From NCBI GenBank assembly GCA_903835065.1, contig CAILLO010000049.1:1-64000 (forward strand): 64,000 nucleotides of DNA, in the 5' to 3' direction. The notes beneath the pieces were generated by a model. It was not told where the DNA came from. It searched no databases and saw nothing but the letters and a program-made list of their open reading frames with translations. Origin of the DNA: an uncultured Eubacteriales bacterium. Its GTDB lineage: Bacteria; Bacillota; Clostridia; Saccharofermentanales; UBA5734. This document shows positions 17,996-63,006 of the stretch, one piece after another (positions within the stretch are counted from its first letter, which is position 1; each line of letters opens with the position of its first letter). The translations under genes and the position numbers were made by a program.

Positions 17996-18029
17996 AAAAG
18001 GAAGCCCCCGGGGGTTCCGGAGGCTTCCT
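17996..18029 (-). terminator. Terminator of tRNA-Thr
   Basis: On the minus strand AGGAAGCC (18029-18022) and GGCTTCCT (18006-17999) enclose a GC-rich inner stem. TTTT follows (17999-17996). The hairpin begins at the last base of the encoded CCA. Confidence 0.88.
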
Positions 18030-18103
18030 GGAGCCGCTGGTGGGAATCGGACCCACGACCTATTCATTACGAGTGAATCGCTCTACCCCTGAGCCACAGC
18101 GGC
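18029..18103 (-). tRNA. tRNA-Thr (anticodon CGT)
   Basis: A 75-nt cloverleaf beginning GCCGCTGTGGCTCAG. The anticodon loop CTCGTAA gives CGU, which reads ACG. CCA is encoded. A consensus-like promoter and a terminator flank it closely. Confidence 0.95.
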
Positions 18104-18117
18104 GTCTTGCCTATCAG

Positions 18118-18146
18118 AATATATCGGCTGGCGGCGGGACTGTCAA
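18118..18146 (-). promoter_or_regulatory. Promoter of tRNA-Thr, overlapping the mtaD stop
   Basis: TTGACA (18146-18141), 17 nt, TATATT (18123-18118) on the minus strand, 14 nt before the tRNA. The -35 box spans the stop codon of mtaD (18145-18143). Confidence 0.88.
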
Positions 18147-19477
18147 GACGCGGCGGAAACGATGTGGCGCGCGGACTCGAGCGCCTCGGCGCGGATCCGC
18201 TCCTCGTCGAGCGTCGTCAGCTCCCCCTTCCGGAGGAGCATGCGCCCGTCGACCAGGAGGCTTTCCACGCAGGAAGAGTCGGCACTGTAGACGAATGCGG
18301 ACATGGGGTCGCCGAGCGGTGTCATCGAGGCCCGGTCTACGTTCAGGACGACCAGGTCGGCCTGCTTGCCGACCTCGAGGATTCCGACGCCGGGGAACCC
18401 GCACCCGACCGCCCCATTGACCGTCGCCATCCGGAGCGCAGTTGCGGCGTCCATGATCGCGGGCTCTCCCGTGGATCCCTTGGCGAGGAACGACGAAAGG
18501 CGGATCTCGTGGAACAGGTCGAGGTTGTTGTTGCTCGCCGCGCCGTCCGTGCCGAGCGCGATGCGGATGCCGGCCCGCTGCATGGCGTGGACGTCGGCGA
18601 TGCCGCTGCCCAGCTTGAGGTTGCTGGAAGGGTTGTGGACGATCGTGACGTCGTTGCGCGCGAGGATCTCGCGGTCCGCGGGCATCAGGTGCACGCAGTG
18701 GGCGGCCAGCGTCGGCGTGCGGAAGAAGCCGGCGGCCTCGAGAAAGGCAGGCGGAGTCAAGCCGTGCCGAGCGACGCATTCCTCGACTTCGCGGCTGGTC
18801 TCGGAGACGTGGACCTGGACAGGCAGGCCGAGGTCCTCGGCGATCGCGGCCATCCCTTGGTAGATCCCGTCCGGATAGAGATAGACGGAATGCATCAGCA
18901 GGGAGATCGCCACGCGACCGTCCCCTTCGGTCCGCGCGAGCGCAAGGAACCGCTCGAGGTCCTCGGGAGCCGGAACCAGCGCCCCGGTCGCGTCGCGGCG
19001 CTTGCCGTCGATCGCGAGGTCGAGTCGCGCGCCCGCTTCGACGAAGGACTCGAGGACCGTTTCCTGGAAGAAGTACATATCGGCCGCCGTGCCCGTGCCC
19101 GATCGGAACATCTCGCAGAGCGCGAGCCGGGTTCCGGCACGCACGTCCTGGGCGCGAAGGCGCGTCTCACGCGGGAAGACGACGCTGAAGAGCCAGTCGT
19201 GCAGCGAAAGGTCGTCGGCGCTGTTCCGCATGAGGGTCATCGCGGCGTGTCCGTGCGCGTTCGCGAGCGCGGGCGCGAGGATCCGGCCGGAGCCGGAATA
19301 GGTCTCGTGCTCGACGCCCGCCAGGGACAGGAGTGCGGCGGGGCGCGAAGGGCCGATATGGACGATCATCCCATCGCGGACCGCTACGTACGCGTCGGTC
19401 ATCGTGAAGGCACCGCCGCTCAGGTCCGGGCTGATGACGGTGATTCGGTCGAACAGGACGTTGGTTCGTCCGATCAT
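18143..19477 (-). CDS. mtaD: 5-methylthioadenosine / S-adenosylhomocysteine / 5'-deoxyadenosine deaminase
   Basis: A 444-residue amidohydrolase of the MtaD/DadD family, which deaminates MTA, SAH and in some members 5'-deoxyadenosine to the inosine form. Metal and catalytic motifs are ANAHGHAAMTLMR (His75, His77), VQVHVSETSREVEEC, TLAAHCVHL and LGTDGAASNNNLDLF. The first motif has Gly where most members have Thr (HTH). It overlaps ahcY by four bases (ATGA) and follows PNP and AhcY in one operon. Substrate preference cannot be settled from sequence. An alternative is a chlorohydrolase-type relative, but the GTDGAASNN motif fits MtaD best. Confidence 0.88.
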   Translation of the reverse strand: MIGRTNVLFDRITVISPDLSGGAFTMTDAYVAVRDGMIVHIGPSRPAALLSLAGVEHETYSGSGRILAPALANAHGHAAMTLMRNSADDLSLHDWLFSVVFPRETRLRAQDVRAGTRLALCEMFRSGTGTAADMYFFQETVLESFVEAGARLDLAIDGKRRDATGALVPAPEDLERFLALARTEGDGRVAISLLMHSVYLYPDGIYQGMAAIAEDLGLPVQVHVSETSREVEECVARHGLTPPAFLEAAGFFRTPTLAAHCVHLMPADREILARNDVTIVHNPSSNLKLGSGIADVHAMQRAGIRIALGTDGAASNNNLDLFHEIRLSSFLAKGSTGEPAIMDAATALRMATVNGAVGCGFPGVGILEVGKQADLVVLNVDRASMTPLGDPMSAFVYSADSSCVESLLVDGRMLLRKGELTTLDEERIRAEALESARHIVSAAS

Positions 19478-20745
19478 GGGCGGTTCCCTTTCTCGGAGGC
19501 GATCTCCCAGGTCGTGGCGTACCGCTCCTGGGCATCGGTCAGCCGGTCGACCGAGGCGCCGCGTGATGCGAGGAACAGGGAGGCGACCCGTTCGTCGAAT
19601 TCCTTAGGGACGTCGTGGACCCGGACCGCGAGCGACCGGCCGTTCTGCGCGATATACCGCGCGGAAAGCGCCTGCAGGCCGAAGCTCATGTCCATGATCT
19701 CGATCGGGTGGCCGTCGCCGGCTGCGAGGTTGACGAGCCGGCCCTCCCCGAGGAGGTGCAGCGACCTGCCGTTCCGGAGGCGGTAGGAGCGGATGTTGGC
19801 GCGGGGTTCATCGACGGAACGCGCCAACGAGGCGAGTGCCGGGATGTCGATCTCGACGTCGAAGTGGCCGGCGTTGCACAGGACCGCGCCGTCCTTCATG
19901 ACTTCGAGATGTTCGCGGACGATGATGTCGCGGCAGCCCGTGACCGTGATGAAGAGGTCGCCCTGACGCGCCGCTTCCCGCATCGGCAGGACGCGGCAGC
20001 CGTCCAGGAGGGCCTCGGCGGCCCGGACGGCATCGATCTCGCAGACGACGACATCGGCGCCCAGGCCCTTGGCCCGAGCCGCGACGCCCTTTCCGCACAT
20101 CCCGTACCCGGCGACGACGACGGTCTTCCCGGCGATCAGCAGGTTGGTCGTGGCGAGGATCGCGGTCCAGGCCGACTGTCCCGTCCCGTAGCGGTTGTCG
20201 AAGAGATGCTTGCATCGCGCGTTGTTGACGGCGACAACTGGATAGAGGAGCCGGCCTTCCCGCTCCAAAATGCGGAGGCGGTTGACGCCGGTCGTGGTCT
20301 CCTCGCATCCGCCCAGCAGGTCGGCGGCGTCGGCGCGGCGCTTCCCGTGGAGCAGGTAGGCGAAGTCCCCGCCGTCGTCGATGACGACGTGGGGCCGGAA
20401 GGCCAGCGCCGCGCAAAGGTGGTCCTCGTATTCGGCCGGCGTCGCGCCGTGCCAGCAGTATACGTCCATGCCGGTCGCGGCGAGCGCTGCCGCGACGTCG
20501 TCCTGAGTGGACAGGGGGTTGCACCCGGTCAGCGCGACGTGGGCTCCCCCGATGCGGAGCGTCTCGGCCAGGCAGGCGGTCTTGGCTTCCACGTGCACGC
20601 TGACGGCGACGCGCAAGCCATCGAACGGACGCTCCCGCGCGAATTCCTCGCGCAGGGCGGCGAGAATCGGCATGTTGGCGGCCGCCCAGTCGATCTTCCT
20701 TCTCCCCTGGCCGGCCAGCGACGGATCCCGGACGATCGAGCCCAT
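19474..20745 (-). CDS. ahcY: Adenosylhomocysteinase-family protein (archaeal/Thermotoga type; possibly S-inosylhomocysteine hydrolase)
   Basis: A 423-residue NAD-dependent SAH hydrolase family protein. The NAD-binding loop is VVVAGYGMCGKG, preceded by the substrate/NAD motif NRYGTGQSAW. The N-terminal domain has HVEAKTACL and CNPLSTQDDVAAAL, and LCNAGHFDVEID is near the end. The NPLSTQDD form, without the longer insert of eukaryotic and proteobacterial enzymes, is the short archaeal/Thermotoga type, some of which prefer S-inosylhomocysteine. Encoded between PNP (one base) and the deaminase (4-base overlap), it may act after deamination; this is inference. The product is homocysteine plus adenosine or inosine. 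Confidence 0.9.
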   Translation of the reverse strand: MGSIVRDPSLAGQGRRKIDWAAANMPILAALREEFARERPFDGLRVAVSVHVEAKTACLAETLRIGGAHVALTGCNPLSTQDDVAAALAATGMDVYCWHGATPAEYEDHLCAALAFRPHVVIDDGGDFAYLLHGKRRADAADLLGGCEETTTGVNRLRILEREGRLLYPVVAVNNARCKHLFDNRYGTGQSAWTAILATTNLLIAGKTVVVAGYGMCGKGVAARAKGLGADVVVCEIDAVRAAEALLDGCRVLPMREAARQGDLFITVTGCRDIIVREHLEVMKDGAVLCNAGHFDVEIDIPALASLARSVDEPRANIRSYRLRNGRSLHLLGEGRLVNLAAGDGHPIEIMDMSFGLQALSARYIAQNGRSLAVRVHDVPKEFDERVASLFLASRGASVDRLTDAQERYATTWEIASEKGNRP

Positions 20746-20746
20746 G

Positions 20747-21589
20747 TCAGGCGTCCCCCATGCGGGACAGGACGGCTCCGAGCAGCCGGATCAGGCCATC
20801 GGCGGCTTCGCGTCCGACCTGGAGGACTTCCTCGTGGTTCAGGGGGGATTTCGAGATGCCGGCGGCGAGATTCGTGATGCAGGAGACGGCGAGGACCCGG
20901 GTGCCTCCATGGGAGGCGACGACCGCCTCGGGCACGGTGCTCATGCCGGCTGCGGAGGCTCCGAGCGAACGGAGCATGCGGATCTCGGCCGGCGTCTCGA
21001 ACTGGGGCCCCCTGCAGAAGGCGTACACGCCGCGGACGAAATGCAGTCCGATCTCCTTCGCGCACCGGTCGGCCAGGTCGACGAGCGCGGGGTCGTACAC
21101 GTGGGTCTGGTCGCAGAAGCGAGGTCCGAATTCGTCGAGATTGGGACCGCGCAGCGGGGATTCGCCGAAGAGACCGATGTGGTCCTCGATCAGCATCAGG
21201 CAGCCGGGCTTCATGGCTGGATCCATGCCGCCGGCGGCATTGGTCAGGATCAGGGTGCGCACGCCCAGGGTCTGGAGGACGCGGACCGGAAACACGACGT
21301 CGTGGATGTCGTGGCCTTCGTAATGGTGGAAGCGCCCCTGCAGGACGGCGACGGAGCGGCCGTGGAGCGTGCCGAAGACGAACCGCCCCTGGTGGCCGAC
21401 GACAGTGACCTTCGGGAAACCGGGGATCTCCTCGTAGGGGACGACGGTCGGCTGCTCCACGGCGTCCGCGAGGGGACCGAGTCCGGATCCCAGCACGATC
21501 GCGACGTCGGGCACCGTCCGGACCCTCTCGCGGATTGCGGCCGAGGCGTTGCGGATGCGTTCCCGATAGGCGGCGATATCGAAATCCAT
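20747..21589 (-). CDS. punA: Purine nucleoside phosphorylase (trimeric PunA type)
   Basis: A 280-residue phosphorylase that splits purine nucleosides with phosphate into base and (deoxy)ribose-1-phosphate. Phosphate and ribose motifs are VLGSGLGPLAD, GHQGRFVFG and LTNAAGGMD. FETPAEIRML provides the purine-binding Glu and SCITNLAAG the Asn that in trimeric PNPs selects 6-oxopurines (inosine, guanosine); MTA phosphorylases have Asp there. ATG 21589 follows GAGGAGGGAAG. It is upstream of ahcY and mtaD in one operon and 33 bases after secA, so secA transcripts may extend into it. Confidence 0.93.
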   Translation of the reverse strand: MDFDIAAYRERIRNASAAIRERVRTVPDVAIVLGSGLGPLADAVEQPTVVPYEEIPGFPKVTVVGHQGRFVFGTLHGRSVAVLQGRFHHYEGHDIHDVVFPVRVLQTLGVRTLILTNAAGGMDPAMKPGCLMLIEDHIGLFGESPLRGPNLDEFGPRFCDQTHVYDPALVDLADRCAKEIGLHFVRGVYAFCRGPQFETPAEIRMLRSLGASAAGMSTVPEAVVASHGGTRVLAVSCITNLAAGISKSPLNHEEVLQVGREAADGLIRLLGAVLSRMGDA

Positions 21590-59879: not shown

Positions 59880-60959
59880 TCAGCGCACCTCGACCGTTTC
59901 GTACGCGCGGCTGCCGAGCCCGAGGGCGGCCAGGCGGTCGAGCTGCAGGTAGGGGTCCTTGCCGTGGATGCGCTCGAAGAGATGACCCTTCTCGCCCATC
60001 TCGGTTCCGACCGGCACCGAGAGAGGGTTGAAGTCCTCGACGCGGATGCGGTCGAGGCAGGCCTGTTCGACGGCGACGAGGTCGTAGGAGGCGCAGATGC
60101 CGACGTCCGGCACGATCGAGGGCGTCGTGAAGCCCCAGCAATCGCACAAAGCGGTCATCTGCAGCATCGCGTTGACGTAGAGGACCCGGTCCTTCGGGAA
60201 GTCCTCGAGCGCGGCCCGCGTGCACAGGGCCATCCCGTGCTGGAAGTCCTCGTAGTTCGAACCGGTCGGCGAGATCGCGCCGGTCGGGCAGACCTTGACG
60301 CAGTGCTGGCACAGGGTGCAGTGGTGGTAGAAGACCTCGTACTTCCCGTTCTCGTCGAAGGAGTTGGCGTGGTGGTTGCAGCTGCCGATGCAGGCCTCGC
60401 AGTGCGTGCACTTCGACTCGTCCCAGGCGAGGCCGGTCTCGAGTCCGTGGATGCTGCCGCGGGTGTGGTCGTCGACGCAGCCCATGGCGATGTTCTTGCA
60501 GGCGCCCCCGTAGCCGCAGGCGCCGTGCCCCTTGACGTGGGAGAGGACGACGACGGCGTCGGCATCGTGGAAGTTTCCGGCGATGTTGGCGTATTCGAAG
60601 GTCTTGAACCCGATCTCCTTGCGGTACAGGTACTTTTCGGTCACGCCGCAGGAGGTCGTGATCGGGCAGCCGAAATAGTTCTCGGTGTATCCTCGCGCGG
60701 CAGCCCCGTCGACGGTCTGGTCGATCAGGTAGGGCGTCGCGCCGGCCGCCTTCAGCCGGTCGACCAGGATCTTCACGAACAAAGGCGGGATCGTCGAGTA
60801 GCCGATCTCGCGTCCCACGTGCATCTTGATCGCCGTGCGGGCACCCTTGAAGCCGGCCTCGAGGCCGACCGCGCCGAGCATGCGCTCGAACTTCGCGGGA
60901 AGGGTGCATTCGGGGGCGTACTTCTCGAAGGACATGCCGGAGTACCAGACCTTGGACAT
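59880..60959 (-). CDS. DUF362 domain iron-sulfur protein
   Basis: 359 residues. A DUF362 N-terminal region (about 1-210, IKMHVGREIGYSTIPP, VLSHVKGHGACGYGGACKN) and a ferredoxin-like part with two cysteine sets: HCTLCQHCVKVCPTGAI is canonical [4Fe-4S], while CTHCEACIGSCNHHANSF lacks the final Pro and has HH instead. Such proteins probably carry electrons; their enzyme partners are unknown. ATG 60959 follows AAAGGAGC. It follows the aldolase and precedes ruvC by two bases. Confidence 0.88.
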   Translation of the reverse strand: MSKVWYSGMSFEKYAPECTLPAKFERMLGAVGLEAGFKGARTAIKMHVGREIGYSTIPPLFVKILVDRLKAAGATPYLIDQTVDGAAARGYTENYFGCPITTSCGVTEKYLYRKEIGFKTFEYANIAGNFHDADAVVVLSHVKGHGACGYGGACKNIAMGCVDDHTRGSIHGLETGLAWDESKCTHCEACIGSCNHHANSFDENGKYEVFYHHCTLCQHCVKVCPTGAISPTGSNYEDFQHGMALCTRAALEDFPKDRVLYVNAMLQMTALCDCWGFTTPSIVPDVGICASYDLVAVEQACLDRIRVEDFNPLSVPVGTEMGEKGHLFERIHGKDPYLQLDRLAALGLGSRAYETVEVR

Positions 60960-61021: not shown

Positions 61022-61762
61022 TCATCGCGTTTTCTGCCCGCCGGGCGTCGGGACGCCGGGGAAGTCGGACCGGTTCGTCTCGGCCGGAACCGAGGGCGGG
61101 ATCCCGCCGGCCACGATCCCGAGCCGACGGCGGGTCTCGAGGAGTTCCTCGATCTGCGCCGTGGACAGCTCGTTCGCGCGGCCGATCAGGCTCATGGCGT
61201 TCATCGTCAGGGTCGCGTAGGATTCGAGGGACTCCATGCGCCCGTATGCCTCCTGCAGCGTCGCCCCCCAGGTCAGGGCACCGTGGTTCGCGAGCAGGAC
61301 GGCGTTGGACGTGCGGCAGAAAGGGGCGATCGAATCGGGGACGTCCTGCGTGCCGGGCGTCGCATAGGGGGCCACGGGCACGACGCCGAGGTTGACCACG
61401 GATTCCGCCAGGATCGCCCGGTCGAGGCGATAGCCCGCGACCGCATAGGAGGTCGCGACGGGCGGGTGGGCGTGCACGACGGCCCCGACTTCCGGGTTCT
61501 CGCGGTAGACCCGCAGGTGCATCCCCAGTTCGGACGACGGCGCCCGACGGCCCTTCCGCACGCTGCCGTCGAGGTCGACGACGACGAGGTCGCGAGGCGA
61601 GAGGAAACCCTTGCACATCCCGGTCGGCGTCGTGAGCACGAGTCCTCCCGGCAGCCGCACGCTCACATTGCCGTCGAAGGAGGCGACCAGCCCGCGGGCG
61701 TACAGCCTCCGTCCGATCTCGCAGACCTCCCGGCGGATCCGGCCTTCCGACACCCGGTTCAT
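61022..61762 (-). CDS. Class II aldolase (FucA/Ald2-like)
   Basis: 246 residues. A zinc-dependent class II aldolase/adducin fold. The zinc ligands are His98, His100 (VHAHPP) and His160 (LANHGAL), and the catalytic Glu79 lies in PSSELGMHLRVY. Family members cleave fuculose-1-phosphate or ribulose-phosphates, or act as MtnB dehydratase. Its overlap with mtnA (ATGA) suggests the product of MtnA is its substrate, that is 5-deoxyribulose- or methylthioribulose-1-phosphate, giving DHAP plus an aldehyde (DHAP shunt); this is inference. ATG 61762 follows AAGGGAATC. Confidence 0.82.
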   Translation of the reverse strand: MNRVSEGRIRREVCEIGRRLYARGLVASFDGNVSVRLPGGLVLTTPTGMCKGFLSPRDLVVVDLDGSVRKGRRAPSSELGMHLRVYRENPEVGAVVHAHPPVATSYAVAGYRLDRAILAESVVNLGVVPVAPYATPGTQDVPDSIAPFCRTSNAVLLANHGALTWGATLQEAYGRMESLESYATLTMNAMSLIGRANELSTAQIEELLETRRRLGIVAGGIPPSVPAETNRSDFPGVPTPGGQKTR

Positions 61763-62835
61763 CCCCGATTCCCTTCGAACAGCCGGGCGATCGCCGGCCC
61801 GTAGGGCGGGCAAAGCACGCCGCGCTCGGTCACGATCGCCGAGATCCGGTCCGCTTCGGTCACGTCGAACGCGGGGTTGTAGACCTTGACGCCTTCCGGG
61901 GCCATCCGCACGCGGAATCCCATCTCGGTGACCTCCGAGGCGCCGCGGTACTCGATCGGGATCGCGCCGCCCGTGGCGCAGGCGAGGTCGATCGTCGACA
62001 GCGGCGCGCACACATAGAACGGCACCCCGTAGTGCTTCGCGAGGATCGAGAGGCCATTCGTGCCGATCTTGTTCGCGGCATCGCCGTTGGCGGCGATGCG
62101 GTCGCTGCCGACGAGGACCGCCTGCACGAGGCCGGACGCAAGGACGCTGGCGGCCATCCCGTCGCACAGCAGCGTCGTGTCCACGCCGTCCTGCATCAGT
62201 TCGAAGGCCGTCAGGCGGGCTCCCTGAAGGAGCGGCCGGGTCTCGTCGGCGTAGACGCGGAAGGCGTACCCGCGCTCCTGCCCGAGGTGGATCGGGGCGA
62301 GGGCGGTCCCGTAGCGCGAGGTGGCGAGCGAGCCGGCGTTGCAGTGCGTGAGCAGGCCCATGCCGGGGGAGAGCAGCGACAGGCCGTGCTCGCCGATGCG
62401 GCGGCAGTTCTCCTCGTCTTCGCGCAGGATCGCGTCCGCCTCCGCGAGCAGGACCTTTTTCAGCCCGTCGCCGGAATCGCCGGCGTATCGGGCGGCGCAG
62501 GCCTTCATGCGGTCCAGCGCCCAGAAAAGGTTGACCGCGGTCGGCCGCGAGGTCGCGAGATACGAACACACCTCGGCCAGGCGGTCCCGGACCGCCCGCG
62601 CGTCGTCGGTCTGCACGGCGGAGACGGCCAGCAGCGTCCCATAGGCGGCGGCGATGCCGATCGCGGGCGCGCCCCGGACGCGCAGGCTCCGGATCGCCTC
62701 GAAGACCTGCTCGGAGGAGCGGAGACGGAGGTGGACGATTTCGCCGGGCAGCCGGGTCTGGTCGAGCACGACCAGTTCCTCGCGGGCCGCATCGTATCGG
62801 AGGGGCGTCGTCGGGTTCATCTTCGGATCGTTCAT
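61759..62835 (-). CDS. mtnA: S-methyl-5-thioribose-1-phosphate isomerase
   Basis: 358 residues. Converts methylthioribose-1-phosphate (or 5-deoxyribose-1-phosphate) to the ribulose-1-phosphate. RVRGAPAIGIAAAYG is the substrate loop; Cys165 (THCNAGSLA) and Asp245 (GSDRIAANGDAANKIGT) are the catalytic pair at the expected spacing. ATG 62835 follows GGGAGGAC. A weak extended -10 (TGGTACGAT, 62865-62857) may drive it. It is the first gene of the operon with the aldolase. Confidence 0.94.
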   Translation of the reverse strand: MNDPKMNPTTPLRYDAAREELVVLDQTRLPGEIVHLRLRSSEQVFEAIRSLRVRGAPAIGIAAAYGTLLAVSAVQTDDARAVRDRLAEVCSYLATSRPTAVNLFWALDRMKACAARYAGDSGDGLKKVLLAEADAILREDEENCRRIGEHGLSLLSPGMGLLTHCNAGSLATSRYGTALAPIHLGQERGYAFRVYADETRPLLQGARLTAFELMQDGVDTTLLCDGMAASVLASGLVQAVLVGSDRIAANGDAANKIGTNGLSILAKHYGVPFYVCAPLSTIDLACATGGAIPIEYRGASEVTEMGFRVRMAPEGVKVYNPAFDVTEADRISAIVTERGVLCPPYGPAIARLFEGNRG

Positions 62836-62887: not shown

Positions 62888-62917
62888 TTGACACTTCGGG
62901 GGTTCACTTCGTATAAT
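62888..62917 (+). promoter_or_regulatory. Promoter of tRNA-Lys(CTT)
   Basis: TTGACA (62888-62893), 18 nt, TATAAT (62912-62917), 13 nt before the tRNA. Confidence 0.88.
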
Positions 62918-62930
62918 CCAAAAGCGACTT

Positions 62931-63006
62931 GCGCCTTTAGCTCAGTTGGTAGAGCAACTGACTCTTAATCAGTGGGTCCTGGGTTCGAGCCCCCGAAGGC
63001 GCACCA
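62931..63006 (+). tRNA. tRNA-Lys (anticodon CTT)
   Basis: A 76-nt cloverleaf starting GCGCCTTTAGCTCAG. The anticodon loop CTCTTAA gives CUU, which reads AAG. CCA is encoded. It complements the UUU tRNA-Lys at 10086. Confidence 0.95.

Follow-up and report, generated by a model that had tools for sequence, protein, structure and literature searches.

In the stretch of DNA analysed here, 64,000 nucleotides from an uncultured Eubacteriales bacterium (hereafter the window), an mtnA gene overlaps a gene for a class II aldolase, and the question raised by this locus is which sugar phosphate the two proteins act upon and how the cell comes by it. The pair resembles the last two steps by which the leftover sugar of S-adenosylmethionine chemistry is turned into food, namely the lower half of the dihydroxyacetone phosphate (DHAP) shunt. 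The less usual aspect is that profile searches recovered none of the known first-step enzymes from the genome; the waste nucleoside is probably first deaminated here and then cleaved by an ordinary purine enzyme. The window is one contig of a 2.51-Mb assembly that is 98.5% complete, and the absences reported below for this genome are those of profile searches. Its RuvB shares 61-72% identity with sequences from Bacillota, its nearest group, and 53-58% with those from Bacteroidota, Synergistota and Spirochaetota.

The mtnA-aldolase gene pair

61759-62835, minus strand: mtnA, 358 aa (TIGR00512; closest PDB entry 2yrf)
61022-61762, minus strand: class II aldolase, 246 aa (PF00596); candidate 5-deoxyribulose-1-phosphate / methylthioribulose-1-phosphate aldolase
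61759-61762, minus strand: 4-base overlap of the mtnA stop and the aldolase start, ATGA on the coding strand

The mtnA product scored 414.7 bits against TIGR00512 (curated cut-off: 279) and 443.5 bits against PRK05720 (curated cut-off: 271), and its Cys165 and Asp245 sit within the conserved motifs TxCNAGSxATS and DRIAxNGDxANKIGT. An earlier note on this DNA had described the genes as fused by an overlap of four bases; the overlap was recovered, and "fused" proved to be loose wording since mtnA and the aldolase gene are separate reading frames encoding two proteins. The only other genome of the same genus (L180) keeps the pair, with a GTGA overlap at the junction. The two genes would constitute a translationally coupled, two-gene operon representing the lower half of the DHAP shunt.

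The sole match of a promoter scan was the promoter of a tRNA-Lys gene on the opposite strand. This gene, tRNA-Lys(CTT) at 62888-63006, is divergent from mtnA and has a consensus-perfect sigma-70 promoter (TTGACA-18-TATAAT). At the other end, a DUF362-like gene of ferredoxin type (59880-60959) lies on the same strand, 62 bases 3' of the aldolase gene; it was rejected as an operon member because tblastn gave no match (E 1e-10) in the loci of other genomes, the mtnA locus of the congener included.

Aldolase identity and linkage to mtnA in other genomes

The aldolase scored 177 bits against the Pfam family Aldolase_II (PF00596; cut-off: 22.2) and fell under every NCBIfam equivalog cut-off. Its catalytic Glu78 and metal-binding His97, His99 and His160 are invariant among 17 aligned relatives. 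The earlier note was right about intact zinc ligands and glutamate and about the number of His160, its other numbers (Glu79, His98, His100) being one too high. An AlphaFold2 model (pLDDT 80) gave DrdA (6btd) as its best structural match with a Z score of 29.2; YgbL and FucA came within one Z unit, and this tie means that the fold leaves the substrate unsettled.

In a maximum-likelihood tree the set that includes the window aldolase has 21 members, 19 of them mtnA-linked (support 84/93, the set being open), and is clearly separate both from YgbL and from a group containing FucA and DrdA (98/91). The aldolase thus belongs to a clade linked to mtnA and mtnK and not to that of DrdA, for which biochemical proof exists. 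The FucA/DrdA group also contains other mtnA-linked aldolases of this order, and the fact that two distinct aldolase clades adjoin mtnA suggests a functional link rather than chance.

These data bear on whether the enzyme performs other chemistry, i.e. MtnB-like dehydration in methionine salvage, decarboxylation of 3-oxo-tetronate 4-phosphate or cleavage of fuculose-1-phosphate. The top NCBIfam model is indeed the 3-oxo-tetronate-4-phosphate decarboxylase (140 bits) and Escherichia coli YgbL is 37% identical, but the scores against this model, MtnB and FucA (140/250, 77/137 and 84/400 bits against the respective cut-offs) are all under threshold and the tree parts the aldolase from YgbL, FucA and DrdA alike, grouping it with mtnA/mtnK-linked aldolases; we consider such chemistry improbable. 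None of the five class II aldolase matches in the genome reached the MtnB cut-off, and the full mtnBCDE set that the earlier note named as a refuting case was thus lacking its MtnB. The same assembly also has, on contig C28 (L005:760-2082), a single ORF with two tandem class II aldolase domains, an arrangement widespread in the family.

For 80 named genomes, selected on MtnA similarity alone, the genes within approximately 6 kb of mtnA were surveyed. An aldolase of this superfamily was present in 22 of them; 19 of these 22 aldolases are 43-60% identical to that of the window, and MtnK accompanies the pair at 11 of the 22 loci. Matches to PNP, DadD, AhcY or BMP (E 1e-4) were absent within 6 kb of mtnA across all 80. 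Co-occurrence, which the earlier note had proposed to check, was positive for aldolase orthologues and MtnA within this order (Fisher p ~0.005-0.01, phylogeny not corrected); three genomes (G003, G005, G012) have the aldolase and no MtnA.

Genes for bacterial microcompartment (BMC) shell proteins lie 3' of the aldolase gene in Clostridium bovifaecis, Ca. Epulonipiscium and Salipaludibacillus. The first two loci (L039, L053) were confirmed to encode an aldehyde dehydrogenase as well and the third (L061) a PduL-type phosphotransacylase, neighbours that fit a small reactive aldehyde product such as acetaldehyde. The order MtnK-MtnA-aldolase followed by shell proteins (L039:4700-12787, L053, L061) has the appearance of a BMC-enclosed DHAP shunt, of which the main text of a BMC catalogue paper makes no mention (PMC8217296).

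Several neighbours were initially candidates for kinases. The genes of about 515 aa that lie 3' of the aldolase in L039 and L053 are aldehyde dehydrogenases and not FGGY kinases, and the supposed sugar kinases of L226 and L229 are TrkH proteins. A true FGGY kinase is found 5' of the aldolase in L224, hence some aldolases of the window's own family may act on another substrate. A divergent group of MtnA-like paralogues (L198:6014-7060, L233:6130-7215 and about 20 relatives), about 27-30% identical and under the MtnA cut-off, was also observed in a sister family.

With the catalytic residues kept and the clade linked to mtnA and mtnK, it is very probable that the pair forms the isomerase and aldolase half of a DHAP shunt, as the earlier note had claimed, and acts on 5-deoxy(methylthio)pentose-1-phosphates. 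By analogy with Bacillus thuringiensis DrdA, for which this activity has been proven (PMC6079011), the aldolase is predicted to cleave 5-deoxyribulose-1-phosphate.

Sources of the pentose-1-phosphate

The earlier note stated that MtnK and MtnN are not encoded beside the pair and called for a genome-wide search; profile searches found neither of them, nor MtnP, nor an IU (purine) nucleoside hydrolase, anywhere in the genome. A search with PF01048 returned only two genes of the PNP superfamily, a uridine phosphorylase and the PNP of the window, the latter being the only purine phosphorylase found. With neither MtnN plus MtnK nor MtnP detected by these searches as the source of the pentose-1-phosphate, the DHAP shunt of this genome would be a variant at most. 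The waste nucleosides themselves are presumably produced, as the genome has about 15 radical-SAM matches and one spermine-synthase-family gene, from which 5'-deoxyadenosine and perhaps methylthioadenosine would arise. A candidate source lies about 40 kb from the pair:

20747-21589, minus strand: PNP, trimeric-type inosine/guanosine phosphorylase (TIGR01700, 316.6 bits, cut-off 293; ITN and LNHEEV motifs)
19474-20745, minus strand: AhcY of S-inosylhomocysteine-hydrolase (SIHH) type (HVEAK motif; best PDB match 7r3a)
18143-19477, minus strand: DadD/MtaD-type deaminase of the 5'-deoxyadenosine / methylthioadenosine / SAH deaminase family (PF01979; PDB 4f0r, TM0936)

This operon exists where the earlier note had placed it, except that it was described there as consisting of two genes, MtaD and PNP, and the AhcY gene between them was missed. 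One base separates PNP from ahcY, and ahcY overlaps the deaminase gene by four bases (ATGA). The best NCBIfam models for the deaminase are of the MTA/SAH/5'-dAdo deaminase type, all under their equivalog cut-offs. The best PDB match of AhcY is an S-inosyl-L-homocysteine hydrolase (7r3a, 490 bits, versus about 316 or less for SAHHs outside the archaeal-type group). The motif HxExK marks enzymes that prefer SIH (PMC10978960), and it reads HVEAK in the window and HVEAK or HLEAK in every relative copy that covers it; the window AhcY is therefore probably of SIHH type with a predicted preference for SIH. The PNP has a 6-oxopurine pocket with a CITN motif (equivalent to human Asn243). Judging from the HVEAK AhcY and the ITN PNP, the main job of the operon is probably to deaminate SAH to S-inosylhomocysteine, release inosine from this by hydrolysis and phosphorolyse the inosine to hypoxanthine. 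A tRNA-Thr gene (18029-18103) comes next after this probable SAH-to-S-inosylhomocysteine recycling operon (18143-21589), whose gene order is strongly conserved in two families.

The order PNP-AhcY-DadD was read in 24 genomes, comprising the window, 16 others of its family and seven of a second family (f2). None of the f2 genomes was listed with an MtnA, and in the window's own family most genomes have the operon while an MtnA match of any kind occurs in only 10 of 23. The operon hence does not exist for the sake of MtnA, which again points to SAH recycling as its principal role. This distribution favours the view that the distant operon serves SAH recycling only and that the pair, still as half of a DHAP shunt, is supplied by another source, which might be a phosphorylase or kinase that escaped recognition, a gene that the assembly lacks, or the import of 5-deoxyribose and its phosphorylation by an unknown kinase. 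It is likewise favoured by the resemblance of the PNP to an ordinary inosine enzyme and by the frequency of mtnA-aldolase pairs that have neither a kinase nor a PNP or deaminase close by (11 of the 80 loci). However, a genome that is nearly complete yielded no MtnK, MtnN, MtnP or nucleoside hydrolase, and in sister families MtnA is clustered with PNP and with SIHH or a deaminase, so that we hold a supply from elsewhere to be rather unlikely.

These clusters take several forms. PNP, MtnA and AhcY (SIHH) are contiguous in G065 (L235). In G033 and G044 (L187, L188), PNP, MtnA, a PnrA-type nucleoside ABC transporter and DadD are encoded on one strand; the run (L187:2769-12569, and L188) comprises PNP, MtnA, a PnrA/BMP nucleoside-binding protein, an ABC ATPase, two permeases and the DadD-type deaminase, and is a candidate operon for the import and salvage of 5'-deoxynucleosides. 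G040 (L198) has the order PNP-DadD-MtnA-like, in which one of the MtnA-like paralogues sits within a PNP-DadD operon. A same-strand run in Pusillibacter faecalis has an aldolase, MtnA, a PnrA-type importer, a DeoD-type PNP and an amidohydrolase. Its full order on pMM59_01 (L252:4821-13001, L256:1-5926) is aldolase, DeoR regulator, cupin, SDR, MtnA, BMP lipoprotein, DeoD-type PNP, ABC transporter and amidohydrolase; the plasmid is typed as conjugative and the strain is a human gut isolate. The amidohydrolase was considered as a DadD and rejected, being 8-oxoguanine-deaminase-like and 24% identical.

Human PNP carries a histidine, His257, that contacts the 5'-OH of the nucleoside. The equivalent position was compared between the window PNP (20747-21589) and those of loci L142, L144, L145, L146/L235, L187 and L188. 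Every one of the 24 PNP-SIHH-DadD operons, that of the window included (LNHEEV), has His at this position; the six PNPs encoded next to MtnA all have Ser, and four PNP-DadD operons that lack SIHH have Asp or Glu. The 5' pocket of the window PNP thus keeps the histidine, unlike those of the MtnA-linked PNPs, which makes its cleavage of 5'-deoxyinosine uncertain and that of methylthioinosine doubtful. Methylthioinosine is not cleaved by human PNP. Plasmodium PNP is hexameric and contacts the 5'-OH through another histidine, His7; there, a change of His to Ser shifts preference toward methylthioinosine (PMC3885546). Going by these residues, the PNPs of the sister genomes are probably dedicated to 5'-deoxyinosine, and that of the window is probably an ordinary inosine enzyme for which 5'-deoxyinosine would be a second substrate. 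The pattern may in part reflect ancestry rather than function; His versus Ser in the 5' pocket nevertheless offers a testable single-residue predictor of PNP substrate.

A PNP of inosine type also invites the reading that the pair degrades ribose-1-phosphate derived from inosine, with MtnA giving ribulose-1-phosphate and the aldolase giving DHAP and glycolaldehyde, as nucleoside catabolism and not salvage of a waste sugar. The aldolase does match the halobacterial ribulose-1-phosphate aldolase model weakly (111.7/300 bits), and PnrA-type nucleoside importers occur in the MtnA-linked clusters of relatives. Since the sister PNPs beside MtnA have lost the histidine that contacts the 5'-OH, pointing to 5'-deoxy substrates, and since the aldolase clade occurs with MtnK, whose known substrates (5-methylthioribose and 5-deoxyribose) have no 5-OH, we think this very unlikely.

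Proposed route and comparison with known systems

In the route that we prefer, the DadD-type deaminase would convert 5'-deoxyadenosine, released by the approximately 15 radical-SAM enzymes, to 5'-deoxyinosine; the operon PNP would split this into hypoxanthine and 5-deoxyribose-1-phosphate without a nucleosidase or kinase; MtnA would isomerise the latter to 5-deoxyribulose-1-phosphate; and the aldolase would cleave it to DHAP and acetaldehyde. In the window the link from PNP to MtnA is made by elimination, as no other recognised gene in the genome could make the MtnA substrate, and it gains support from the clusters of PNP, MtnA and SIHH or deaminase in relatives. With no MtnP and a 6-oxopurine PNP as the only purine phosphorylase found, the deaminase would have to act before phosphorolysis. 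Gene content, profile absences, residues, clade membership and linkage in relatives were observed, and from these every substrate, and the passage of the sugar phosphate from PNP to MtnA, is predicted.

The path from 5'-deoxyadenosine via MtaD and PNP, which the earlier note had suggested, is therefore borne out in part: the sister-genome clusters speak for it, while the 40 kb between the two operons, the probable SAH-recycling role of the distant one and the retained histidine speak against it. Whether DadD and PNP of the window do supply the pair, so that the whole deaminase-first route would operate in this genome, is in our judgement evenly balanced. More tentatively, in some Bacillota the DHAP shunt may be purine-coupled and deaminase-first, DadD and a PNP taking the place of MtnN, MtnK and MtnP, with the 5' pocket of PNP in this order having been switched between His (SAH/inosine operons) and Ser (beside MtnA), and the window representing an unlinked form whose one inosine-type PNP would serve both SAH and 5'-deoxyadenosine. 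The locus and its relatives suggest a route in which SAH recycling and 5'-deoxyadenosine disposal would be merged via one deaminase and one PNP.

Kinase-free and deaminase-first routes have each been published already, the former as the MtnP DHAP shunt (PMC10986504, PMC6079011) and the latter in Methanocaldococcus jannaschii (PMC6302742, PMC10978960). Hence the words "without a kinase" in the earlier note agree with the absence of MtnK from our search results and do not describe a novelty. No Bacillota system joining DadD, a trimeric PNP, MtnA and an aldolase turned up in the searchable literature, most subscription journals being outside its scope. The route is a plausible variation on a known pathway, its PNP step being predicted.

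The MtnN-plus-MtnK variant of the DHAP shunt (E. coli ATCC 25922; DrdK-DrdI-DrdA of B. thuringiensis) likewise has a clustered MtnA-type isomerase and class II aldolase, with DHAP and acetaldehyde as predicted products (PMC10986504, PMC6079011); in contrast, neither MtnN nor MtnK was found in the present genome, and its aldolase and B. thuringiensis DrdA fall into separate clades. The MtnP variant (Rhodospirillum rubrum type; the cluster of Clostridium phytofermentans) is likewise free of a kinase, the phosphorylase yielding the pentose-1-phosphate directly (PMC10986504, PMC6079011), whereas here no MtnP was found and a 6-oxopurine PNP was the one purine phosphorylase recovered. The deaminase-first salvage of M. 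jannaschii (DadD, MTIP, MtnA, SIHH) shares with the window the DadD-type deaminase, the HxExK SIH hydrolase, MtnA and a 6-oxopurine phosphorylase acting after deamination (PMC10978960, PMC6302742), and there 5-deoxyribulose-1-phosphate is proposed to be converted to 6-deoxy-5-ketofructose-1-phosphate (PMC6079011). The window, however, is bacterial, has a trimeric PNP in place of the promiscuous MTIP and has a class II aldolase adjoining MtnA. A route through MTA deaminase and methylthioinosine phosphorylase, deaminase-first upstream of MtnA, was reportedly described in Pseudomonas aeruginosa by Guan et al. in 2011 and 2012, works cited in PMC6302742. Salvage in P. aeruginosa continues via MtnBCD to methionine; MtnB was not found in the genome studied here, where MtnA is followed by an aldolase instead.
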